This document shows, one piece after another, positions 3,001 to 38,370 of a stretch of 64,000 bases of DNA. The position numbers and the translations under genes were made by a program. Source of the stretch: Pseudomonas sp. Ga0074129 (GTDB lineage Bacteria; Pseudomonadota; Gammaproteobacteria; Pseudomonadales; Pseudomonadaceae); contig LNDO01000057.1 in assembly GCA_001465025.1 (NCBI GenBank), forward strand, positions 1 to 64,000, in the 5' to 3' direction. The notes beneath the pieces are model-generated. The model was not told the origin of the DNA. It did not search any database and saw nothing but the letters and a program-made list of their open reading frames with translations. Numbering within the stretch: the stretch's first letter is position 1; every line of letters starts with the position of its first letter.

Positions 3001-6000
3001 GTGCTGGATTTCAGCGGCAGCGTTGATAACGCCGAACTCAATACCATGTTGCAGGCCGTTCGCGCGGCTGGGCAGGCCTTGTTCAATGGCACCTCGGGCG
3101 ATGTCGTAATCAAGGTCGTTGCTTTCTCCGGGACTGCTAAATCCTTCGCTGCCGTCAGTGATTTTGCCGCTTTCTCAAATTTGATTGGTAGCCTCAATCC
3201 TGCAGAGAATGGCAGTCGTCCGTTCAATGGGCAGACGGACTTTACCGCCGCGGTTGAGGAAACCATGGCCGTCTATACACCGGTTGCCGGTGCGAGCAAT
3301 CAGGTGTTCTTTATCAGTGACGGCAACCCTAATGAGCAGACGGGCACTAACGGCAACTCATTGTCAGACAGTACGGCGCAAGCCTGGCAAACCTTCCTCA
3401 GCAGCCATGCCATTGGAGTGACTGCGGTGGGCGTGGGCAGTGGCGTCAATATTGAGCGGTTGCAGGATGTTGATCTCGATGGCGTGGGCGCACCCATTCA
3501 GGTCGGCGATTTCACGGGCCTGATTGATACCTTACTGAGTCAGATCGGTGCGCTGGTCAGCGGCAATGTTTTGCTGGGTAGCGATGGTGTTGCTGGTGGT
3601 GGCGATGACGATGCTTTTGGCGCTGACGGGTCGGGCTATATCCAGTCCATCGTGATCAATGGCATCACCTACGTGTGGGACGGCGCAGGCACTATCGATC
3701 CGAGTTCTGGGCCTAACATTGCCGGCAGCCAGTTGAGCAATATCACGACGCCTGAAGGCGGCAAGCTGAGCTTCAACTTCAGCACCGGGGCGTGGACCTA
3801 CCAGGCACCTATAAATGTCACCGGTGATAAGACCGAGGCCTTCACCTACAGCATCGTTGATAAGGACGGCGACCCCTCCAGCGCCAATCTGACCGTTAAT
3901 GTGGCGGACATCAGCCCGGTTATTGCCAGGGTTGACGAGGACGAGTTGCCCGGCGGTATCACCGATAATGATGTGATTACCACGGTTGCCACCGGCAATG
4001 TTGGCGAACTGGTTGTGGGTTCGTCTGCGGGTGTTCAGTTCAGCCTCTCGGGCAGTACCGCAGGCCTGCAGCCAGCCAGTTCCGATGGCGTGGGCCTGGT
4101 CTACAGCGTTTCAAACAATACCCTGACCGCAAAAGCAGGCGCTGCTGGCCCGACCATCTTTACCTTGCAGGTGCAAACCAACGGCGACTACACCTTCACC
4201 CTCAGTGGCCCGCTGGACCATCCGGCGGCTGGGCGCGATGACAACGCGTTGCTGGTCATGAACTTTGCCAGCCTTCTGAAGGCCAGCGTTGGCGTGGATC
4301 CGGTTGCTCTGCTGGGTGATTTCTTGGTGCTTATCGAGAATGACATACCGACTGTCAGCGCCGGCTCGCCTGTTGCCGATTCCTTGCAGGTTGATGAAAC
4401 CAATCTGGCGACCAATGCCAGCGCCGGCTTCGCATCATTGTTCTCTACCAACTACGGTGCCGATGGCCCCGGTAGTGCCACCACCTACAGCCTGCAAGTC
4501 AGCGTCAATGGTGTGGACAGCGGTTTGGACGATGTCGCGACCGGCAGCAATATTCTGCTGTACCTGGAAAGCGGTCAGGTCGTAGGTCGTGTTGGTGGTA
4601 CGACAGGGGCTGTATCTTTCACCGTATCCGTAAATGCCAGTGGCGTGGTGACGCTGGATCAACAGCGGGCTATTGCGCATGCACCGAACACGACGGCGGA
4701 TCAGGAGTCCAGCTTGGCCAGTGCCAATCTGGTGCAACTGAGCGCCACTGTCGTCGATGGCGATGGTGATTCCAGCAGCGCCATTTTGAATTTGGGCAGT
4801 GTCATCAGTTTCAGAGACGACGGCCCAAGCATAAGTGCTGGTGTCGCAACGGCTGATTCGCTGCAGGTGGATGAATCCAACTTGGCAACCAATGCCAACG
4901 TCAGCTTCGCCGGAGCATTTACGTCGAGCTACGGCGCTGATGGGGCTGGCACCATCACGTATGCGCTCACTGTCAGCGCCGCTGGGGTAGACAGCGGGCT
5001 TGATGACTCTGCCTCGGGTAGCAACATCCTCTTGTTCCTTGAGGGGGGTAATGTGGTGGGGCGTGTGGGCAGCGAAACAGGCGCTGTGTCATTCACTATT
5101 TCAGTGAACGCCAGCGGCGTGGTCAATTTGGATCAGCAACGCGCAATCATACATACGCCCAACAACGGGCCGAATCAGGAAGTCAGCCTGGCGTCTGCCA
5201 ACTTGGTGCAACTGAAGGCGACCATCACTGATCGTGACGGCGATGGCAACAGTGCGACCATTAATCTGGGTGATGCTATCAGCTTCCGGGATGACGGGCC
5301 GAGCATCAGTGTCACTACCGCCGGCAACGATCGTCTGCAAGTGGACGAGAGCGACCTGGCAACCAATGTGACGGTTAACTTTGCGGGCTTGTTCACAGGG
5401 AGCTACGGTGCCGACGGTGCTGGCACCACCACCTATGGCCTGAATGTCAGTGCCGCTGGCGCAGACAGTGGTCTGGATGACTCTGCTACCGGCAGCAATA
5501 TCCTGCTGTTTAACGAGGCGGGCGTGATTGTTGGCCGTGTAGGCAACGCCGGTGGCGCGGTGTCGTTTACTGTCTCGGTCAATGCGAGCGGTCAGGTCAC
5601 CCTTGATCAACAGCGGGCGATTATCCATACCCCGAACAGTGAGGTAGATCAGGAGTCCAGTCTGGCAGCTGCCAACCTCGTGCAACTGAGCGCCACCATT
5701 ACCGACAAGGATGGCGACACGGCTACGGCTTCGGTCAATCTGGGTAGTGCTATCAGCTTCCGGGATGATGGGCCGAGCATCAGTGCCACTGCCGCCGGCA
5801 ACGATCGCCTGCAAGTGGATGAGAGCGACCTGGCAACCAATGCCACGGTTAACTTTGCGGGCTTGTTCACAGGCAGCTACGGTGCCGACGGTGCTGGCAC
5901 CACCACGTATGCGCTCAACGTCAGCGCCGCTGGGGTAGACAGTGGTCTGGATGATTCTGCTACCGGCAGTAATATCCTGCTGTTTAACGAGGCGGGCGTG

Positions 6001-8847
6001 ATTGTGGGCCGTGTAGGCAACGCCGGTGGCGCGGTGTCATTTACTGTCTCGGTCAATGCGAGCGGTCAGGTCACCCTTGATCAACAGCGGGCGATTATTC
6101 ATACCCCGAACAGTGGGGCAGATCAGGAGTCCAGTTTGGCAGCTGCCAACCTCGTGCAACTGAGCGCCACCATTACCGACAAGGATGGCGACACGGCTAC
6201 GGCATCGGTCAATCTGGGCAGTGCTATCAGCTTCAAGGATGACGGCCCGAGCATTAGCTCCAATGGGTTGGCCGCGGACAGTCTGCAGGTTGATGAGACC
6301 ACTCTGTCCGGCAATACCAGCACCAGTTTTGCGGGTGCATTTACATCCAGTTATGGTGCCGATGGTGCCGGCACCACGGTTTATAGCCTCAATGTCAGTG
6401 CGGCAGGCGTGGACAGTGGTTTGGATGATTCGCTCACGGGTAGCAATATTCTGCTGTTCCTGGAGGCCGGCAGTGTGGTCGGTCGTGTGGGCAGTGCGGC
6501 GGGGGAGATTTCTTTCACCGTTGCAGTCAATGCCAGCAATGGCACCGTCTCCCTGGATCAACAACGGGCGATCATTCATACGCCCAATAGCGGGCCGAAT
6601 CAGGAGGCCAGCTTGGCGGCAGCCAATCTGATCAAACTCAACGCCACAATCACCGACAAAGACGGAGATCAGGCCACGAGTTCGATTGATCTTGGGCATG
6701 CCATCAGCTTCTTGGATGATGCGCCAAACGCCGTCAATCAGGTCCACAGTGGTCAGGCGTCGACCCAGCTTAATACCAACCTAGTCATCATTCTGGACGT
6801 CTCGGACAGCATGAATAATGACTCGGGCGTTGGCGGCATGAGCCGTTTGCAAGTGGCCAAAAACGCGTTGCTGGAACTTTTGGAGCAGTACGATGCGCTG
6901 GGTGAGGTGAAGGTCAGCTTCACCACCTTTGCCACCAATGCTTCAAGCGCCGCGACTTGGTTGACACTTGATGCCGCGAAGGCGGCCATCGTGGCGGCCA
7001 CTACCGGTTCGGTCACCAACTACGACGCGGCATTGATCGACGCCATCAACTCATTCAGTGAAAGCGGCAAACTCACCATGGGCAGCGTGCAAAACGTGGC
7101 TTACTTCCTCTCGGATGGTTATCCCAACCGACCAACGGGGGATGCAGGCATTTCAGATGTGGCGGGTACTGCGGCTGGTTGGCCGGCACCCTATGCCAAT
7201 GGCGGTGTGTCAGAAGAACAGGCGTGGATCAACTTCCTCACGGCCAATAATATCCGGTCTTATGCCTTAGCTATGGGCTCGGGTGTGGATGCCGCAGCGC
7301 TGAACCCGATTGCCTACGACGGCACTAATGGCGGTAACAATACGGCTGCCACTGTCGTGGATGACTTCAACGATCTGACTGCAACCTTGGTGGCAACAGC
7401 CCAAGCGTCTCCCATCACTGGCAACCTCACAACCGGCGGCAGTTTTGGCAGTGACGGTGGTTTTGTTCATACGTTGGTGGTTAATGGCACGACCTACACC
7501 TATTCCAAATCGTCCAATACCGTTGTGGCGTCAGGAGGCACCAACAACGGCAGCCTAACGGGCACTTCGTTGAAGGTGCTGATGGGCTCTGGCTCTGACA
7601 TCACCGTAAATATGCTCACCGGTGGCTACACCTATACACCGCCCAATACGATTACCACGGCCATTGCCTTGAGCATTGGTTTTACCCTGATCGATAACGA
7701 TGCGGATGCCACTGCTCTGGGCAGTCTCAACATCGCGATCAGTCCGGACTCTGCCCCGTTGGTTGTGCGTGATGACCTCGTGTTGACCAATGTAAACACC
7801 CAGGACGGCAATGATGTCATCGCTATCCCAACCTGGGCATTGCTTGCCAACGACAGCGGGCCTAACAGCAGCCTGTTATCAGTATTAAACGTGGTAGGGG
7901 CTGTGGACGGCAGTGCAGCGCTGGTGGCCGCTACAGCGCGCTTTACTGAGGAAAGCGCAGGTGCAGCCGATGGTGGCAGATTCGCCTATGGTGCATCCAT
8001 TAATGGCAGCACGGTTATAGATACCGGAGTTGTCGATGTTGTGCGCAGTGCCGATTCCACTTCGCTGACAGGTACTTTCCGCAATGAAATCCTTTTGGGC
8101 CGTGATGGTGGCAACGACACCCTTAGTGGGGGTGATGGCGATGACATTTTGATCGGCCTTGGGGGTAACGACACCCTGAACGGCGGTAATGGCAACGACA
8201 TCCTGGCCGGTGGCGCCGGCAACGACACGTTAAATGGCGGAGCAGGTATCGATACTGCAAGTTATATCGATGCGGGCTCGGCTGTAACCGTCAGCCTTGT
8301 TGTTGCCACTGCGCAGAATACCGGCGGTGCAGGGACTGACACCCTCAATAGCATCGATAATCTGATCGGTTCCAGCTTTGGCGACACGCTAACGGGTAAC
8401 GGCAGCGCCAACCTACTGTTTGGCGGCGCGGGTGGTGACACGCTAGTCGGTAATGGCGGTGATGACATCCTGATTGGCGGGTTGGGCGGTGACACCATGA
8501 CCGGTGGCACCGGTAAAGACACCTTCCTTTGGCAAAAAGGCGGTTTGGGTGGCGGCCTGGATCACATCACAGATTTCACCATCAATACCAATGGCCTCAA
8601 CTCCGACATTCTGGATCTGTCGCAGTTACTTTCAGGCGTTGGCACCGATCCAAATGTCCTGCAGGACTATCTGGATTTTGCCTTCTTGGGGACCACAACC
8701 ACCATCAGCATCAGAACGGTTGCCAGTGGGCCGGTCGAGCAGCAGGTCATGCTTGATAACGTCAACCTCTCCACGCTTTATGGCAACAGCAATGAGGCGA
8801 CGGTGATCATGAACATGCTGGATGACAATGCGCTGAAAATTGCCTAG
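1..8847 (+). CDS. Giant RTX-type adhesin, type I secreted (5' end outside window)
   Basis: This is the C-terminal 2948 residues of a very large surface adhesin; the reading frame is open from base 1, so the true start lies upstream. In order it shows two nearly identical 181-residue repeats (about 1-362) and the start of a third, further bacterial Ig/VCBS-like units each ending in a DGDGD-type motif, a von Willebrand A domain (about 993-1180, MIDAS DFSGS near 1003), five 158-residue repeats starting with LQVDE (about 1461-2250), a second vWA domain (about 2255-2470, MIDAS DVSDS), then RTX calcium-binding nonapeptides (GGNGNDIL type, about 2699-2840) and a C-terminal type I secretion region. 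The family (LapA/MapA-like) is exported by an ABC/TolC system and mediates biofilm attachment. The periplasmic-cleavage N-terminus and the secretion genes are not in the window. It matches no named adhesin closely enough for a symbol. Confidence 0.9.
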   Translation: MLLTQTLTDGDGDSASVSIDLGVKGVFNFEDDAPLARLNVEARPLQAAIVDESLISLGGTGSDGVASAVLSATVVQDQFNSQYGADGAGADGTVYRLELNGDDVPSGLFAVDASAADGKGEPIVLNQVGNVITGSAGGVAYFTLTIDPASGAVTLNLLDNLWHSDATNADDSQSLNLSEGTLLLTQTLTDGDGDSASVSIDLGTKGAFSFEDDAPLARLNVEARPLQAALVDESLISLGGAGNDGVASAVLSAAAVQDQFNSQYGADGAGADGTVYRLELNGDDVPSGLFAVDASAADGKGEPIVLNQVGNVITGSACGVDYFTLTIDPANGEVTLNLLDNLWHSDASNADDSQSLNLSEGTLLLTQTLTDGDGDSASVSIDLGVKDVFRFEDDAPTAGQLTAQVVLDDEGLAGGINGGPGDVSGAATSLSGNLVFTAGADGFKSLALSGPATLGTESVTSSWAEATQTLTISSDRGVLVTVQLTDPASGAYTLNLLQPLMHPVTGTEDDISLNIGYTVTDGDGDSAMGSLVVSIDDDTPTIQAGSIGVSSFVTFQGTNAGFHNTYGYYNKAADGTPLDGQVIWANVKLQSVGAVADLSGLDPASTGFFIIPNGAANLALSNGASLTFEQVGGKWTAMLGGQPLTGADGANVLFSDASLNPGGSHLQDTSSAGNQNWEDQTLTSDFDYNDVSTNVTWGSSLQVDESNLAFNATANFSGVFNVQAGADGLKNLSYDLSVQNANSGLVDAETNEAVVLSLNAGVIEGRTAGTNELVFTLSVNDSGAVTLDQIRAIVHPTGDPDEAKFLGAGHVKLNATVTDGDGDQASASIDIGAVISFKDDAPRALPNAPVQLDDDALPGGIAGGVGDDVESTLTSGTLGHHFGADGAGSMQWLVGGAPAGFTYQTSGSSLLIKQGATTVLTVTLNQSNGAYTVTQNAPIQHATADQENNQAFTLTYQVIDKDGDTATGSLSINVDDDTPQARDDVATVQASQGKDFNVAFVLDFSGSVDNAELNTMLQAVRAAGQALFNGTSGDVVIKVVAFSGTAKSFAAVSDFAAFSNLIGSLNPAENGSRPFNGQTDFTAAVEETMAVYTPVAGASNQVFFISDGNPNEQTGTNGNSLSDSTAQAWQTFLSSHAIGVTAVGVGSGVNIERLQDVDLDGVGAPIQVGDFTGLIDTLLSQIGALVSGNVLLGSDGVAGGGDDDAFGADGSGYIQSIVINGITYVWDGAGTIDPSSGPNIAGSQLSNITTPEGGKLSFNFSTGAWTYQAPINVTGDKTEAFTYSIVDKDGDPSSANLTVNVADISPVIARVDEDELPGGITDNDVITTVATGNVGELVVGSSAGVQFSLSGSTAGLQPASSDGVGLVYSVSNNTLTAKAGAAGPTIFTLQVQTNGDYTFTLSGPLDHPAAGRDDNALLVMNFASLLKASVGVDPVALLGDFLVLIENDIPTVSAGSPVADSLQVDETNLATNASAGFASLFSTNYGADGPGSATTYSLQVSVNGVDSGLDDVATGSNILLYLESGQVVGRVGGTTGAVSFTVSVNASGVVTLDQQRAIAHAPNTTADQESSLASANLVQLSATVVDGDGDSSSAILNLGSVISFRDDGPSISAGVATADSLQVDESNLATNANVSFAGAFTSSYGADGAGTITYALTVSAAGVDSGLDDSASGSNILLFLEGGNVVGRVGSETGAVSFTISVNASGVVNLDQQRAIIHTPNNGPNQEVSLASANLVQLKATITDRDGDGNSATINLGDAISFRDDGPSISVTTAGNDRLQVDESDLATNVTVNFAGLFTGSYGADGAGTTTYGLNVSAAGADSGLDDSATGSNILLFNEAGVIVGRVGNAGGAVSFTVSVNASGQVTLDQQRAIIHTPNSEVDQESSLAAANLVQLSATITDKDGDTATASVNLGSAISFRDDGPSISATAAGNDRLQVDESDLATNATVNFAGLFTGSYGADGAGTTTYALNVSAAGVDSGLDDSATGSNILLFNEAGVIVGRVGNAGGAVSFTVSVNASGQVTLDQQRAIIHTPNSGADQESSLAAANLVQLSATITDKDGDTATASVNLGSAISFKDDGPSISSNGLAADSLQVDETTLSGNTSTSFAGAFTSSYGADGAGTTVYSLNVSAAGVDSGLDDSLTGSNILLFLEAGSVVGRVGSAAGEISFTVAVNASNGTVSLDQQRAIIHTPNSGPNQEASLAAANLIKLNATITDKDGDQATSSIDLGHAISFLDDAPNAVNQVHSGQASTQLNTNLVIILDVSDSMNNDSGVGGMSRLQVAKNALLELLEQYDALGEVKVSFTTFATNASSAATWLTLDAAKAAIVAATTGSVTNYDAALIDAINSFSESGKLTMGSVQNVAYFLSDGYPNRPTGDAGISDVAGTAAGWPAPYANGGVSEEQAWINFLTANNIRSYALAMGSGVDAAALNPIAYDGTNGGNNTAATVVDDFNDLTATLVATAQASPITGNLTTGGSFGSDGGFVHTLVVNGTTYTYSKSSNTVVASGGTNNGSLTGTSLKVLMGSGSDITVNMLTGGYTYTPPNTITTAIALSIGFTLIDNDADATALGSLNIAISPDSAPLVVRDDLVLTNVNTQDGNDVIAIPTWALLANDSGPNSSLLSVLNVVGAVDGSAALVAATARFTEESAGAADGGRFAYGASINGSTVIDTGVVDVVRSADSTSLTGTFRNEILLGRDGGNDTLSGGDGDDILIGLGGNDTLNGGNGNDILAGGAGNDTLNGGAGIDTASYIDAGSAVTVSLVVATAQNTGGAGTDTLNSIDNLIGSSFGDTLTGNGSANLLFGGAGGDTLVGNGGDDILIGGLGGDTMTGGTGKDTFLWQKGGLGGGLDHITDFTINTNGLNSDILDLSQLLSGVGTDPNVLQDYLDFAFLGTTTTISIRTVASGPVEQQVMLDNVNLSTLYGNSNEATVIMNMLDDNALKIA

Positions 8848-20206: not shown

Positions 20207-20812
20207 ATGCGTGCGTGGTTGATAGGTACTGCTCTAAGTCTGCTGTTGTGCGGCTCGTCGGCGTTTGCGGGTACCTTACTGGTCGTCGGCGATAGTATCA
20301 GCGCGGCTTTTGGCATGGATACCCGGCAGGGTTGGGTAGCTTTGCTGGAAAAACGGCTGGATGAGCAGGGTTTTGACCATCAAGTTGTTAATGCTTCGAT
20401 CAGTGGTGACACCAGTGCGGGCGGTGCCGCGCGGCTGCCTGCGCTACTTGCAGAGCACCAGCCGGAGCTGGTGATTATCGAGTTGGGAGGCAACGATGGT
20501 CTGCGTGGCCAGCCTCCTGCGCAATTGCAACAAAACCTTGCGGCCATGGTTCAGCAGTCACAGAAGGTTGGGGCCAAAGTGCTGATTTTGGGGATGCAAC
20601 TACCGCCTAATTACGGTGTGCGATACACAACAGCTTTCGCCGATGTGTTCCCCAAGGTTGCCAATGAGACTGGCTCAGCCTTGGTGCCTTTCGTGCTGGA
20701 GGGCATAGGTGGCGTGCCTTCCATGATGCAGAGTGATGGGATTCACCCTACTGCTGAAGCTCAGCCTCGGTTGCTGGATAACGTCTGGCCGATGCTGAAG
20801 CCGTTGCTCTGA
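20207..20812 (+). CDS. tesA: TesA-type periplasmic esterase/thioesterase, hybrid gene
   Basis: An SGNH hydrolase (arylesterase, thioesterase I, lysophospholipase L1) exported to the periplasm by an N-terminal signal peptide (about 1-20, LSLLLCGSSAFA). Conserved blocks are GDSIS with the nucleophile Ser, GGND, and DGIHP with the catalytic Asp and His. Length is 201 residues, normal for the family. I chose the ATG at 20207 because GGAG lies 6 bases upstream and the signal peptide begins there. The gene is a chimera: up to about 20524 it is the resident gene, and from there to the stop the sequence was supplied by the inserted element, because the old 3' end survives at 22800-23088. The hybrid keeps all catalytic residues and should be functional. 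Confidence 0.93.
   Translation: MRAWLIGTALSLLLCGSSAFAGTLLVVGDSISAAFGMDTRQGWVALLEKRLDEQGFDHQVVNASISGDTSAGGAARLPALLAEHQPELVIIELGGNDGLRGQPPAQLQQNLAAMVQQSQKVGAKVLILGMQLPPNYGVRYTTAFADVFPKVANETGSALVPFVLEGIGGVPSMMQSDGIHPTAEAQPRLLDNVWPMLKPLL
20524..20550 (+). repeat. Left attachment core (27 bp)
   Basis: Exact match to 22800-22826, beginning ATTGCAACAAAACC and ending GGCCATGGT. It falls in tesA codons for LQQNLAAMV. Sequence to the left is resident tesA; to the right it is the element-borne tesA 3' end. The exact crossover point within or just after the block cannot be fixed because both sides are homologous beyond it. Confidence 0.8.
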
Positions 20813-20868
20813 AGTAGTCCCTGAGCTGGTCAGGAAGCGGCATATTAATGTTCGCCTCCGGGTGCCTG

Positions 20869-21051
20869 TCAACCGTGATTTGTCACACACTTGTGCCCCA
20901 TTTGTGCCAGTCCACTGGGGCCCCGAGGGGGTAGTGGGCGGGCTTTGTATATTAGATGGGGGCTCGGATTTTTGACCCATTTTCTCAAGGACAACCACAC
21001 GACAACCCTGAGCAACAATGCAGCCCCATAGATCAGCATCAGGCTACTCAT
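20869..21051 (-). CDS. Small membrane protein in the tesA element
   Basis: A 60-residue protein with one hydrophobic segment (about 3-22, SSLMLIYGAALLLRVVVWLS) followed by a basic stretch (RKWVK) and a Pro/Gly-rich tail. I chose the ATG at 21051 because AGGA lies 6 bases upstream; an ATG 11 codons earlier has no ribosome-binding site. The gene follows the terminator of the capsid-like gene, so it would need its own promoter, which I could not identify. Its last codons overlap the left set of 11-bp-phased repeats. No family was recognised; holin-like or other phage membrane peptides are possible but this is a guess. Confidence 0.45.
   Translation of the reverse strand: MSSLMLIYGAALLLRVVVWLSLRKWVKNPSPHLIYKARPLPPRGPSGLAQMGHKCVTNHG
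20878..20908 (+). repeat. Three 11-bp-phased repeats near the left end of the element
   Basis: ATTTGTCAC (20878), ACTTGTGCC (20889) and ATTTGTGCC (20900) recur at exactly 11-base intervals, on one face of the helix. The first two units recur, in the same orientation, near the right end (22708 and 22719). Such arrays are typical arm-type binding sites for tyrosine integrases; that role is inferred. Confidence 0.55.
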
Positions 21052-21082
21052 GGTAAGTCCTACTAAAATAGTCGGGTATTGC

Positions 21083-21119
21083 AAAAAGAAGCCCTGAGAC
21101 CCATTAGGTGCTCAGAGCT
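21083..21119 (-). terminator. Rho-independent terminator after the capsid-like gene
   Basis: On the minus strand AGCTCTGAG pairs with CTCAGGGCT (9 bp, one G-T) around a 12-base loop, followed by TCTTTTT. It lies about 155 bases after the stop of the capsid-like gene and just before the small membrane-protein gene, ending the main transcript of the element. Confidence 0.7.
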
Positions 21120-21272
21120 ATCAAGGTGGTTCCTCAAGAACCAGTGTCCGCCAGTCGTCGGCATAAGGACTAAGTAGGACGGCCCCAGGTGTTCCCAGGG
21201 CTCATTCCTTGATGATGGGCAGGGATGGTTAAACAACCACCCTCTATCCCTACAGCGAATCACTGCGAGCCT

Positions 21273-22301
21273 TTACGGGCCTACAGGTGGGGCAGGCTGT
21301 TCTGCCAGGACAAGCTGTTTGACCAGTGGCAGCGCTACCTGTGTGGTCTCCCAATCAGAGCCGCCTACCTTGACTTCAACCATTGCGGTGGCCATTACGT
21401 CCACCACTGCGGAGACCTCAAGTTCCCAGCTCAGCAAGGAGCTATTGCGGGATAGCTCAACGCGCCACACGTCCCCTTCACTGTTCTCTCGGAAGGACAG
21501 CATGGCGAACGCCTTGGGAACCAAGAAGATGCCACGGTCTGTGCCGCTATAGACCTGCACACGGGTGCCCACGAGTTCGTCAATGTCCTCCAGGCCAGCC
21601 CGTTGGGCCGCACGGTTGAGCACAGGGCGAAGGCTTACCGGCACCAGCACGCCAAACTCTGAGATGTCGCGGCCCCAGTAGGTGTCCAAGTGAACAGCAA
21701 TGAGGTCAAGGACATCCTCTGCCTGTGCGGTAGGTGTGCCAGTGATTGCCCCTGCGTAGACCTTCGACACAGAAGGCTGACCTTCCAGGCTCTCGGCGAT
21801 CTTGCTCGCCATGCTTAGCTCAAGATCATTCAGTAGTTTTTCGCCTGTCTGCGCCATGCTTCGTTCAGTGAATCCAAACTGCACTGTGTGGTCGAGAATG
21901 GAGATGCGACCCGACACCAGAACGCCGACCTCTGGGGCCTCCATCGACACCAGCGAGCCCGCTACAGCTTCACCCTTGGTCACGGTGCGGCCATCGTAGG
22001 TCTGGCGAGGATCGAAGGTCACCGAGCGGTTATCCATCAGGGCCACTTGGGGGCACGTTGGGACTGAGCCGAACGGGCGAACCTCAGAGGGGAAAGCGTT
22101 ATCCATGTTCTCACGCCACTCAGCGCCGTTAAGGTGCTCGTCGGCGACTTCCTGCATTGCCTGGGCGTAAACCGCTGGATCACTGGCTGCCATCTCCTGG
22201 GCGCGAACGTCTGAGCTGTGGAAAGACACCTGGGTCAGTCCAAGGGATGCCACGGATTGGGTGTAGGTGCGGTCTGGTGCTTTGTATTGAAACGGTTTCA
22301 T
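21273..22301 (-). CDS. Putative major capsid-like protein (HK97-fold candidate)
   Basis: A 342-residue protein with no signal peptide or transmembrane helix. Its length and pattern resemble tailed-phage major capsid proteins. A long helix-forming stretch (about 150-172, LLNDLELSMASKIAESLE) is followed by a VLDLIAVHLDTYW helix, then GVLVPVSLRPVLNRAA (about 219-234), TRVQVYSGTDRGIFLVPKAFAML (about 247-270) and a C-terminal beta-rich part (SWELEVSAVVDVMATAMVEVKV). These look like the spine helix, A-domain and P-domain order of HK97-type coats. The assignment is by eye only. The start is supported by AGGAG 9 bases upstream of the ATG. It lies 35 bases downstream of the 105-residue gene, in one transcript. 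Codon use is like the host's. An encapsulin-like shell or an unrelated structural protein are alternatives. Confidence 0.45.
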   Translation of the reverse strand: MKPFQYKAPDRTYTQSVASLGLTQVSFHSSDVRAQEMAASDPAVYAQAMQEVADEHLNGAEWRENMDNAFPSEVRPFGSVPTCPQVALMDNRSVTFDPRQTYDGRTVTKGEAVAGSLVSMEAPEVGVLVSGRISILDHTVQFGFTERSMAQTGEKLLNDLELSMASKIAESLEGQPSVSKVYAGAITGTPTAQAEDVLDLIAVHLDTYWGRDISEFGVLVPVSLRPVLNRAAQRAGLEDIDELVGTRVQVYSGTDRGIFLVPKAFAMLSFRENSEGDVWRVELSRNSSLLSWELEVSAVVDVMATAMVEVKVGGSDWETTQVALPLVKQLVLAEQPAPPVGP

Positions 22302-22336
22302 GGTCTGTAACTCCTAATGGTCTAAGTGAATGGCTT

Positions 22337-22654
22337 TCAGCGGCCAAGCTGGCTGCGGATTTGTGCCCCGTGGTCTCGGATGGCCTGTGCCTTGCGCTCA
22401 CGTTCGGCTTTGCGCTCTGCGATCTCTTTCGGTGTCGGGATATGGCAGCGGGCGGCGTGTGCCTGAGATTCAGCAAGTCGGCGGGCCTCAAGCTGCGCCT
22501 GTTCAGCCAGATGATCCCGATAGACACGCATGGTCATAGGGCTTGCCTGCAAGGACAGACCCGCACTGGCGAACGCCTGGGCCACCTTGAGGACGCCTGA
22601 CTGGTCTTTGCCTTGAGCGGCTACGGGGCCTGAAGCGAAGGTAGTAGCGGCCAT
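22337..22654 (-). CDS. Small charged protein, first gene of the tesA element
   Basis: A 105-residue protein with an Ala/Gly/Ser-rich N-terminal half and a highly charged C-terminal helix (about 74-97, PTPKEIAERKAERERKAQ), likely a short coiled coil. No family was recognised. Position just upstream of the capsid-like gene would suit a scaffold or assembly protein, but nucleic-acid binding is equally possible. No good ribosome-binding site is visible at the ATG at 22654, so the start is uncertain; an ATG at M40 or M42 is an alternative. Its promoter would lie in or beside the phased repeats at 22708-22727. Confidence 0.5.
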   Translation of the reverse strand: MAATTFASGPVAAQGKDQSGVLKVAQAFASAGLSLQASPMTMRVYRDHLAEQAQLEARRLAESQAHAARCHIPTPKEIAERKAERERKAQAIRDHGAQIRSQLGR

Positions 22655-22707
22655 GCCTGCGGAAGTGCCAAGGCTTAGCGAGCTGTGTGGTCAGCTTGAG
22701 CGGCGCG

Positions 22708-22727
22708 ATTTGTAACAGACTTGTGCC
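22708..22727 (+). repeat. Two 11-bp-phased repeats near the right end of the element
   Basis: ATTTGTAAC (22708) and ACTTGTGCC (22719), with a degenerate third unit around 22729, match the array at 20878 in sequence, spacing and orientation. They sit about 73 bases inside the right core. Confidence 0.5.
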
Positions 22728-22759
22728 ACTTTGGGCATTCGATTTGGCGGTCATTGGCT

Positions 22760-22784
22760 GGAACCCTTGAGTTTGTGGGGTTCC
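22760..22784. repeat. Inverted repeat next to the right core
   Basis: GGAACCC and GGGTTCC form a 7-bp stem around an 11-base spacer, ending 15 bases before the right 27-bp core. It could be part of the recombination site or a protein-binding site; no function can be shown. Confidence 0.4.
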
Positions 22785-22799
22785 TGACCAGTGGGTGGG

Positions 22800-22826
22800 A
22801 TTGCAACAAAACCTTGCGGCCATGGT
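22800..22826 (+). repeat. Right attachment core (27 bp)
   Basis: Exact copy of 20524-20550. Sequence to the left is element DNA unrelated to tesA; sequence to the right is the displaced original tesA 3' end. The change from no similarity to full similarity is abrupt at 22800. Confidence 0.8.
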
Positions 22827-23088
22827 GCAGGCCTCGCAGCAAAAGGGCGCCCAAGTGCTGATTTTGGGGATGCAACTGCCGCCTAATTACGGCCTGCGTT
22901 ACACCACAGCGTTTGCGGCGGTGTTTCCACAGGTTGCCAGCGAGTTCAGCGTGCCGCTGGTGCCGTTCGTGCTGGAGGGCGTAGGGGGTGTGCCTGAGAT
23001 GATGCAGGCCGATGGTATTCACCCCACTGCCGAAGCGCAGTCCAGGTTGTTGGAGAACGTCTGGCCAACCCTGAAACCTTTGCTCTGA
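22800..23088 (+). pseudogene. tesA: Displaced 3' end of the original tesA
   Basis: This encodes the last 95 residues of a TesA (LQQNLAAMV to ENVWPTLKPLL) with no start region or signal peptide. Aligned with residues 107-201 of the intact copy it has 18 amino-acid differences and no gaps, and similarity stops at the stop codon. It keeps DGIHP but lacks the nucleophile Ser. It continues into the resident downstream DNA (the 23147 gene, L,D-transpeptidase, oprI), so it is the ancestral 3' end left behind by integration. Confidence 0.88.
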
Positions 23089-36777: not shown

Positions 36778-38370
36778 ATGATTAAGCGAGTTTCGCTGCT
36801 TGCGCAGGCGATTGCCGGGGCTGCTGCGCTTTATGCCGGGCTGGCCGATGCTCAGTTGGCGCAGAACCTGACCATTGGCAGCCCCAAAGCCATGGCATTA
36901 GGCAATGCCATCACGGCCGACTTTAGCGGTATTGATGCCGTGCATTACAACCCTGCGGCTCTGACCAAGCTCAAAGGTCGGCAAACCACCATGAAATTCA
37001 TCACAGGCATGATGGACATCCGGGCTGAGTTTGATGCGCCAGCGGGGTACGGCAGCAATTTCCTAGGTCTCAATGATGACCCTGTGGCCAACTCATCCAG
37101 CCGCGCAGGTTCGGCCATGATGTACCTGCCGGGTGTCGGTGGTGCTGTCGAATTGCCGATGCTGTTTGCGCCCTTGGCCGGGTTGTCGATAAACCCTCCG
37201 GGTTCCAAGATTACCTTCGCCACCAACGTGTATACCCCGCAAGCCCTCGGCTTTGCCCGTGAGGATGACGATCCTGGTCGTTATCAAGGTAAGGAGTTGG
37301 TGATTCAGCGGCTGACCTATTTTTCCCCGTCGGTGGCTTATCAGGTAAACGATGAGCTGTCTGTCGGGCTATCAATCGGTTTCTCACATCAGGCCATGGC
37401 GCTCAACCAAGACTTCCGTGCCCCTGGTGTTCTGACCGGCTTTACCGGCGTTGCGCAAGATGCGCTGTGTACGGTGCAAGGCAACCCCTTCGAGTTGTTG
37501 CTTAATTTGTGCGGTGGCGATTTGGGGCCGTTCACTGATATTGCCAATATCGATATCGACATGCAGCAAAGCCTTTCACCCACCTGGAATATTGGCTTTC
37601 TCTGGGAGCCGACTGACTGGTTCGCCTGGGGGGCGGTTTACCAGAGTGAAGCCAAGATGCGTCTCAAAGGTCGTTATGTCGTTGAGTACTCCGAGGACTG
37701 GCAGGGCTTTTGGCAAGGTCTTGATTCATCACTTATAGGCGCAATCTTTAATAGTCTGACGCCCAGCGGCGTGTTCAACGAGGAAGTCGGTAATGTCTCG
37801 CTGGACATGACCTATCCCGCGCACTTTTCAACGGGCCTGAAACTCAAGCCGCATGATCGCTGGCAGATCAATTTTGATCTGAAGTGGACTGACTATGCTG
37901 CGTGGGACAAATTTGAGCTCGAGTTTGATCGCGAACTGGATGTCCTGACCATTGCCAAGTTGTTTTCGCCCAATAATGCAACGTCCACCAGCATCATCTT
38001 GGATCGCGGTTATGAATCGGTCTGGAGTTGGGCGGTGGGCGTTGAATACCAGGTCAATGATCGCCTGAGCCTGCGCATGGGCTACGAGCCGCGTCCCTCT
38101 GCCATTCCGGCTAACAAGGCCGATGTGCTAGCCCCATTAGGGGATGCCAATTTGTATGGCCTGGGCGTGGGGTATCAGTGGGACAAAGATACCGTCATCG
38201 ATCTGGGTTTCAACTACCTGGTCAGCAAACAAGACATCCCCGCCCGCTCCAGTTGCAACATCAACTGTTCGACCATCGACAGCATGGTGTACAACCCCTA
38301 TGCCGATCTTGATGTTAAAACCCGCGTCAAAGCTTATGTCTTGGCATTGACCTATCGCACCACTTTTTAG
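36778..38370 (+). CDS. FadL/OmpP1/TodX-family outer-membrane transporter
   Basis: A 530-residue barrel for uptake of hydrophobic molecules such as long-chain fatty acids or aromatics. After the signal peptide (ending LADA) it shows the FadL plug region with the conserved NPA in VHYNPAALTKLKGR (about 57-70), typical strand patterns, FSPSVAYQVNDELSVGLS and LSLRMGYEPRPSAIP, and a C-terminal ALTYRTTF ending in Phe as expected for BAM-dependent insertion. It is longer than E. coli FadL (446 residues). It lies 17 bases after the previous barrel gene, so the cluster is an operon. The substrate is unknown. Confidence 0.9.
   Translation: MIKRVSLLAQAIAGAAALYAGLADAQLAQNLTIGSPKAMALGNAITADFSGIDAVHYNPAALTKLKGRQTTMKFITGMMDIRAEFDAPAGYGSNFLGLNDDPVANSSSRAGSAMMYLPGVGGAVELPMLFAPLAGLSINPPGSKITFATNVYTPQALGFAREDDDPGRYQGKELVIQRLTYFSPSVAYQVNDELSVGLSIGFSHQAMALNQDFRAPGVLTGFTGVAQDALCTVQGNPFELLLNLCGGDLGPFTDIANIDIDMQQSLSPTWNIGFLWEPTDWFAWGAVYQSEAKMRLKGRYVVEYSEDWQGFWQGLDSSLIGAIFNSLTPSGVFNEEVGNVSLDMTYPAHFSTGLKLKPHDRWQINFDLKWTDYAAWDKFELEFDRELDVLTIAKLFSPNNATSTSIILDRGYESVWSWAVGVEYQVNDRLSLRMGYEPRPSAIPANKADVLAPLGDANLYGLGVGYQWDKDTVIDLGFNYLVSKQDIPARSSCNINCSTIDSMVYNPYADLDVKTRVKAYVLALTYRTTF

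Follow-up and report, generated by a model that had tools for sequence, protein, structure and literature searches.

In the window analysed here, a stretch of 64,000 nucleotides from Pseudomonas sp. Ga0074129 (contig LNDO01000057.1), the 3' end of tesA occurs twice and encloses an insert of 2.28 kb. In a preliminary description, this insert was taken for a site-specifically integrated element without an integrase, i.e. either a minimal satellite borrowing the machinery of a helper or a prophage with a large internal deletion. The locus raises the question of where an insert of this size comes from and what its complete relatives do. As set out below, it is very probably the remnant, left by a single deletion, of an integrative element of about 6.5 kb at the tesA 3' end, the intact members of which are, judging from their sequences, most likely satellites of T7-like podoviruses. 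Taken alone, the insert is ordinary, while the family it belongs to is not.

The insert at tesA

The insert is bounded by two exact direct repeats (27/27 bp identical, 2,276 bp from start to start; coordinates in Table 1), as described before, and each repeat leads into a tesA 3' end, the left one within an intact gene and the right one in a copy consisting of the 3' end alone. Outside the 27-bp core, the two ends agree in 201 of 262 bases (76.7%) and differ in 61, as expected of an element importing its own version of the gene end. With this degree of agreement, the two ends are not a simple recent tandem duplication, and duplication of tesA was ruled out as an explanation. Direct attachment (att) repeats and a replaced gene 3' end give the locus the structure of a site-specific tyrosine-recombinase element, in line with the earlier proposal. 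A tRNA attachment site in the window was rejected, since ARAGORN found no tRNA there.

Three leftward open reading frames (ORFs) lie between the repeats: one of 342 aa, one of 105 aa (22337-22654) and a short one. Submitted to Pfam, PHROGs and NCBIfam, these inner ORFs yielded a best E of 0.024 and no recombinase, replication or packaging enzyme. To this extent the earlier gene inventory holds, but it had overlooked residues 1-43 of a tyrosine integrase just inside the right repeat, after which the homology breaks off. These 43 codons are what is left of an own integrase in the window copy, while relatives have long integrase genes; used as query against the own genome, a relative's integrase detected this remnant, one distant match of 78 residues and nothing else.

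The origin of the remnant becomes apparent from comparison with other Pseudomonas/Stutzerimonas loci, in which a version of about 6.5 kb with an intact integrase occupies the same tesA site. Using the N- and C-terminal halves of TesA as queries, tesA elements with a long integrase gene were found in loci L007, L008, L038 and L053 (individual loci are denoted by L throughout), the element in L038 measuring 6,446 bp from core to core. Window positions 22826-22624 match the integrase start of L038 with 82.8% identity, and positions 22624-22240 match its cl3/capsid side with 72.9% identity, cl3 being the gene upstream of that for the capsid-type protein. Both matching pieces stop at 22624, whereas 4,063 bp separate them in L038, so that a single deletion accounts for the window. 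Deleted are the integrase body, the cargo and promoter region, a gene for a protein of about 100 aa and the 5' part of cl3, the 105-aa ORF continuing into integrase DNA, while the gene of the capsid-type protein is intact.

A natural integrase-free element of 2.28 kb is ruled out by the L038 match on either side of the junction, and the full tesA elements in all four loci contradict this size as the natural one. The other suggestion, a prophage with an internal deletion, was right about the deletion; the parent, however, is a satellite-like element of about 6.5 kb and not a whole prophage. The window copy is best read as a remnant that is either dead or dependent on help in trans. Without the integrase body, the promoter region and the gene of the approximately 100-aa protein, it should neither excise nor switch on by itself; for it to move, a related integrase would have to act on the two remaining att sites. 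Among 95 relatives searched with the element DNA, two matched, namely the own genome in full and 103 bp of another one.

Table 1 Features of the tesA insert and its borders
Feature	Position	Strand	Remarks
tesA	20207..20812	+	201 codons; 3' part from the 27-bp core onward supplied by the element
Left att core, 27 bp	20524..20550	+	tesA core of L038 also 27 bp long
Short ORF of doubtful coding value	20869..21084	-	Overlaps the pac-like motif; family matches weak (E 0.024 at best)
Putative integrase arm site, copy 1	20874..20902	+	83% to copy 2; binding presumed
pac-like motif, variant of the T7-like phage terminal-repeat boundary	20955..20991	-	Aligns with 23 other elements
Small ORF or conserved spacer	21063..21263	-	46-61% at the protein level in L002, L008, L009/L038
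HK97-fold major-capsid-type protein, 342 aa, intact	21273..22301	-	Homology and structure comparisons
cl3 gene, 3' part (DUF6971-like helical protein)	22337..22624	-	Matches profile positions 32-127
Deletion junction	22624		About 4.06 kb missing compared with L038
Integrase remnant, codons 1-43	22624..22754	-	Found with a relative's integrase as query
Putative integrase arm site, copy 2	22704..22732	+	Repeat with copy 1
Right att core, 27 bp	22800..22826	+	Identical to the left core
Host's original tesA 3' end, left over after integration	22800..23088	+	Comparison of the tesA ends

The parent family

With the 342-aa protein as query, seven relatives were found in genome contigs. The capsid-type gene is present in 31 of 398 genomes of the genus, including the own one, which was the sole match when 369 genomes from across the class were searched with the capsid profile. 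Viral contigs gave no match to the window protein as a single-sequence query and five loci to an alignment query. The 23 excised elements have a common layout of integrase, variable cargo, the approximately 100-aa protein, cl3 and capsid-type protein, with a KilA-N/Rha-type gene that varies in position or is absent. Besides tesA, integration sites include what we take, from the translations, to be a nadB-like gene, a LysR-type gene, a gene adjoining a SEC-C-type gene and a sohB-like gene. Arm-site pairs of the same kind as in the window occur near both ends of L008, L041, L046 and L063.

Despite differing cargo, the 22 elements with clear repeats span only 6,366-6,688 bp (mean 6,529, standard deviation 94). 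They represent 22 of 28 relatives examined; L041, with an arm repeat only, and L070, with a partial capsid gene and a spacing of 5,074 bp, were left out, as were L045, L066, L068 and L069, for which no repeat was found. Not all 22 are independent, as L047 and L048 have identical capsid proteins. L002/L039 and L004/L040 are the same contigs encountered twice. In L003, two tandem integrase genes (3337-6140) are accommodated in an element of normal length. The integrases annotated in phages phTUNSv, phTUNSm, vB_PsyP_3MF5 and vB_PaeM-G11 (40-42 kb Pseudomonas records) share 66-73% DNA identity with those of the satellites. Family scans of the cargo, covering 22 of 49 listed ORFs, revealed HNH nucleases and BRO-type proteins as well as genes matching defence models, PD-T7-4 in L057 (6996-7655, E 6.2e-87) and TIR-TM in L054 (12169-12993, E 9.7e-75).

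The capsid-type protein and cl3

By structural comparison, at moderate model quality, the 342-aa protein adopts the HK97 fold, and encapsulins are also among its structural matches. Three of 24 capsid-type proteins carry a C-terminal Ig domain of the phage structural type, and 85 residues of this Ig-type end are 46% identical to the segment just after gp10 in L127. The latter locus (G262 C1 3427000-3446900) holds T7-like genes from gp8 to gp19 within a bacterial contig, with the Ig-domain segment directly following gp10.

In elements where a related cl3 gene was found, it lies upstream of the capsid gene. Its product is predicted to form long helices, and only one structural match reaches probability 1, that to three chains of 5eur (E 1.3e-3 to 2.4e-3), an uncharacterised protein of Shigella. 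5eur is also the sole solid match of the cl3 profile in the PDB (E 1.1e-16). In 350 genomes, the profile detected the own genome and one weak match (6.5e-4), while tblastn with two cl3-type proteins gave no useful match in phages. A function of cl3 as scaffold is a guess.

Signals shared with T7-like phages

Internal repeats of the elements resemble promoters of the gh-1/T3 kind. A first count of such sites, made with a motif picked after seeing the data, gave 38 on the capsid strand, 7 on the opposite one and 3 in the flanks; a matrix was then built from the annotated promoters of phage gh-1 (14 sites; 4 did not align). At a threshold of 16, it gave 24 matches on the capsid strand, none on the opposite strand and none in 289.6 kb of flanks, with 14 of 23 elements positive. 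At a threshold of 10, 22 of 23 elements were positive, with 48 matches on the capsid strand and 5 on the opposite one, 8 + 7 in the flanks and a mean of 6.1 in shuffled sequences. Independently of the capsid gene, scanning 398 genomes for the gh-1-type pattern (at most one mismatch) returned ten places in nine genomes, all of them capsid-positive, and none for the reversed control. Nine of these places lie 741-2,381 bp upstream of a capsid gene on the same strand, the tenth on another contig of a capsid-positive genome.

In addition, many Pseudomonas members carry a site resembling the terminal-repeat boundary of T7-like phages, here called pac. Searched against 50,697 phage records, the L047 end region gave 45 matches, all to records of 37-42 kb; 43 of these are named Pseudomonas phages, and in 24 of the 45 a terminal-repeat or repeat feature is annotated at the match. 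gh-1 and KNP, the two records checked for taxonomy, belong to the Studiervirinae. In gh-1, the match covers 37109-37145, with the terminal repeat beginning at 37143. Identity to this boundary amounts to 34-35 of 37 positions in L047, L048, L050 and L054 and to 25-31 of 37 in twelve further sequences. The end region of L007 matched 46 phage records, that of L003 two records of T7-size Pseudomonas phage at an E of only 0.3. L003 also carries a homologue of gp14 with 56% identity to that of gh-1.

The pac core was located at 26 places, of which 11 are at capsid elements; the other 15 were retrieved. Among capsid-less loci, repeat spacings were 7,570 bp in L117, 5,743 bp in L119 (with an integrase fragment only), 2,327 bp in L122, 1,941 bp in L118, 13,287 bp in L125 and 4,356 bp in L116, where the repeats are probably not att sites. 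L125 (G055 C24 262000-281900), an integrase element bounded by 73-bp repeats, sits at a LysR-type gene; it carries homologues of gh-1 gp2.5, gp13, gp14 and gp16 besides the pac core and has no satellite capsid match; from its gene content, it appears to be a second type of T7-linked element. L117 (G108 C1 857000-873000) has exact repeats of 138 bp, integrase pieces, a KilA-type gene and no capsid match. L122 (G022 C17 42700-58700; 38-bp repeats) and L118 (G190 C1 715500-731500; 16-bp repeats) are inserts at a LysR-type site without integrase, capsid or cl3 match and are either remnants or minimal pac-bearing elements.

Relatives in Escherichia coli

The match to 5eur led to E. coli LR-64-1, in which tRNA-Gly is followed by an integrase, Rha (frameshifted in the record), a 71-aa protein, a DUF6971 protein and a 373-aa protein. 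In a profile scan of these five proteins (Z set to 1000), the 373-aa protein matched the Pseudomonas capsid profile with an E of 5.9e-76 and the DUF6971 protein matched cl3 with 2.7e-18. Two exact 23-bp T7 promoters lie on the same strand between integrase and Rha, and a 17/18 repeat of the tRNA end is found 6,091 bp away. L135 and L136, likewise adjoining tRNA-Gly, contain one exact 23-bp T7 promoter each as well as an integrase, interrupted by an internal stop in L136; the reversed control had no match in the E. coli elements. Exact natural copies of the T7 promoter are present next to tRNA-Gly in E. coli chromosomes (L133, L135, L136). A 4.7-kb query has a match to some part of it in 419 of 5,426 E. 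coli genomes, while at least 80% is covered in LR-64-1 alone. In the viral contig L129, the capsid homologue is split into three ORFs and a T3-like promoter has 2 mismatches in 23 positions. Its flank is presumably enterobacterial and zwf-like, and a search of E. coli genomes with L129 led nowhere.

Proposed cycle and alternative explanations

With an own capsid-type protein, T7-like phage promoters and, in many Pseudomonas copies, the packaging-end sequence of such phages, intact members look like parasites of T7-like viruses, and the family is best read as integrative satellites of these phages that probably build small capsids. On this reading, the earlier idea of a satellite borrowing helper machinery holds for the parent of about 6.5 kb. 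No complete set of replication, packaging and tail genes is present in the elements, judged from gene content and 21 gh-1 protein queries, and promoters and packaging-end motif together imply dependence on a helper for transfer. The element would stay silent in the chromosome until a T7-like phage infects, whose single-subunit RNA polymerase would read the phage-type promoters and turn on cargo, the approximately 100-aa protein, cl3 and the capsid protein. The element's integrase would then excise it, helper enzymes would replicate it and the helper terminase would cut it at the copied terminal-repeat boundary, while packing would combine the element's own capsid protein with portal, core and tail of the helper. 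With modest confidence, we favour a previously undescribed satellite family parasitising T7-like phages in Pseudomonas and Escherichia, which would be switched on only by the helper RNA polymerase via copied promoters, be cut by the helper terminase at the copied boundary and place one genome of about 6.5 kb into each small (about T=3) head of own capsid protein on helper portal, core and tail. By a rough estimate from T7 dimensions, a T=3 head with the T7 core holds about 7.5 kb.

Several observations weigh against this picture. Nine of 23 elements have no promoter at threshold 16, L053 has none even at 10, and scores are uneven in the window's own subfamily (16.7 in L041, 13.1 in L038, 10.8 in L003). 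For the gh-1 boundary, 11 of 27 sequences, including the window, score at most 23/37 compared with 22 for the best flank. The window motif by itself reaches 21-23/37, which is not above that flank score, and is backed solely by the alignment of 24 sequences, from which L042, L043 and L058 were left out for want of an alignable site. The pac core is also present in other integrase elements that lack the satellite capsid gene and next to T7-like phage genes, and its reversed control matched once in 328 genomes. Comparison of the LR-64-1 element with the T7 end revealed no terminal-repeat site, and L135 and L136 have no annotated capsid gene. Structural matches of the capsid-type protein have low TM-scores of about 0.3-0.4; its profile showed no sequence match to gh-1 gp10 in hhalign, and tblastn with the window and L047 proteins found nothing in the 50,697 phage records. 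As the elements were chosen via the capsid gene, the constancy of this gene proves nothing, and the spacings of L070 and the E. coli element fall outside the uniform length. Finally, what the sequence itself shows are the att structure, integrase, capsid fold, promoter motifs with their specificity, the terminal-repeat-like site of many Pseudomonas members, the uniform length and the deletion junction, whereas induction, excision, replication, packaging and small capsids are inferred.

The uniform length is compatible with a small head, but also with six copies in a normal one (6 x 6,529 = 39.2 kb, near T7-like genome size). Thus, concatemers might instead be packaged into full-size helper heads as for PICMI, one of which, 6.1 kb in size, packs as an 8-mer (PMC10803314), with a capsid-type protein that interferes with the helper and builds no small heads. 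This possibility, to which the capsid-less L125 of about twice the length also lends itself, is tenable, though in our view clearly less probable. Against it, a capsid gene (by selection) and, where found, a related cl3 upstream of it are present in the 6.5-kb elements, while the capsid-less repeat-flanked pac-core loci vary from 1,941, 2,327, 5,743 and 7,570 to 13,287 bp. This favours a link between the capsid gene and the 6.5-kb size, albeit from few loci, the shorter of which may be remnants.

That the 2.28-kb form in the window is a functional mini-satellite mobilised in trans is improbable, even though att cores, arm-like sites, pac-like motif and capsid ORF are all intact. The promoter region and the integrase body are gone, and the deletion was seen in one genome only, the search of 95 relatives having returned just the own genome besides the 103-bp match. 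L122 and L118, short repeat-flanked pac-core inserts as well, speak slightly in its favour; recurrent inserts of about 2.3 kb with the same three genes, which were to support a defined element, are however not represented by them, as both sit elsewhere and have no capsid, integrase or cl3 match.

Worn-down T7-like prophages retaining a capsid gene are conceivable in a genus with gp8 to gp19 in a bacterial contig (L127), but we consider this origin highly unlikely: at the sequence level, the satellite capsid does not resemble gp10; across 22-23 elements at a number of different sites, the order of the genes, the length and the promoter positions are repeated; and the 21 gh-1 queries against 27 element sequences matched nothing but gp14 in L003, i.e. 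neither a T7-type RNA polymerase nor portal or terminase. Hardly more can be said for an encapsulin-like compartment or a host-domesticated anti-phage protein, as the encapsulins among the structural matches might suggest, given a gene that sits in mobile elements with phage promoters and the phage-type Ig end shared with L127.

Relation to known satellites and significance

Like cf-PICIs, the family described here, with its putative satellite lifestyle, has an own HK97-fold capsid protein. cf-PICIs, however, encode a fuller head and packaging set of their own, including portal and terminase, and take tails. Neither portal nor terminase nor another packaging set was found by PHROGs/Pfam in the proteins of two elements or with the gh-1 queries, small unknown ORFs remaining, and the helper signals are T7-type. 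With T7-like phages (gh-1/Ghunavirus, T7), the elements share promoters, the terminal-repeat boundary, gp14 in one case and the Ig domain after the capsid protein; they differ in having an integrase, in lacking polymerase, portal, tail and terminase matches and in a capsid protein too distant by sequence. P4 resizes the P2 capsid without an own capsid protein. P4 and PLE are satellites as well, with other helpers and other genes; PLE parasitises a lytic phage (PMC7145576).

The closest known concept is PICMI, i.e. small satellites of virulent phages. PICMI of Vibrionaceae is an integrative satellite of about 6 kb with integrase, att repeats and a virulent helper, defined by integrase, AlpA and primase at fis, has no capsid-remodelling gene and packs as concatemers (PMC10803314). 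Size, integrase and att repeats are alike, whereas a capsid-type gene and T7-type promoters set the Pseudomonas/Escherichia family apart, as does the terminal-repeat-like site of many Pseudomonas members. Neither AlpA nor primase, which define PICMI together with the integrase, was seen among the scanned element proteins, and the sites are genes other than fis.

In the open-access literature, no satellite of a T7-like phage was found, most subscription journals lying outside the search. To our knowledge, none is known for T7, although T7 is among the best-studied viruses. Natural chromosomal copies of the exact T7 promoter, next to an integrase and a capsid-type gene, would imply that dedicated parasites of lytic podoviruses exist, with the helper polymerase as their trigger. 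With T7 or gh-1 and laboratory strains, the system is open to direct experiment, and some of the phage-defence cargo at these sites may be accounted for by it.

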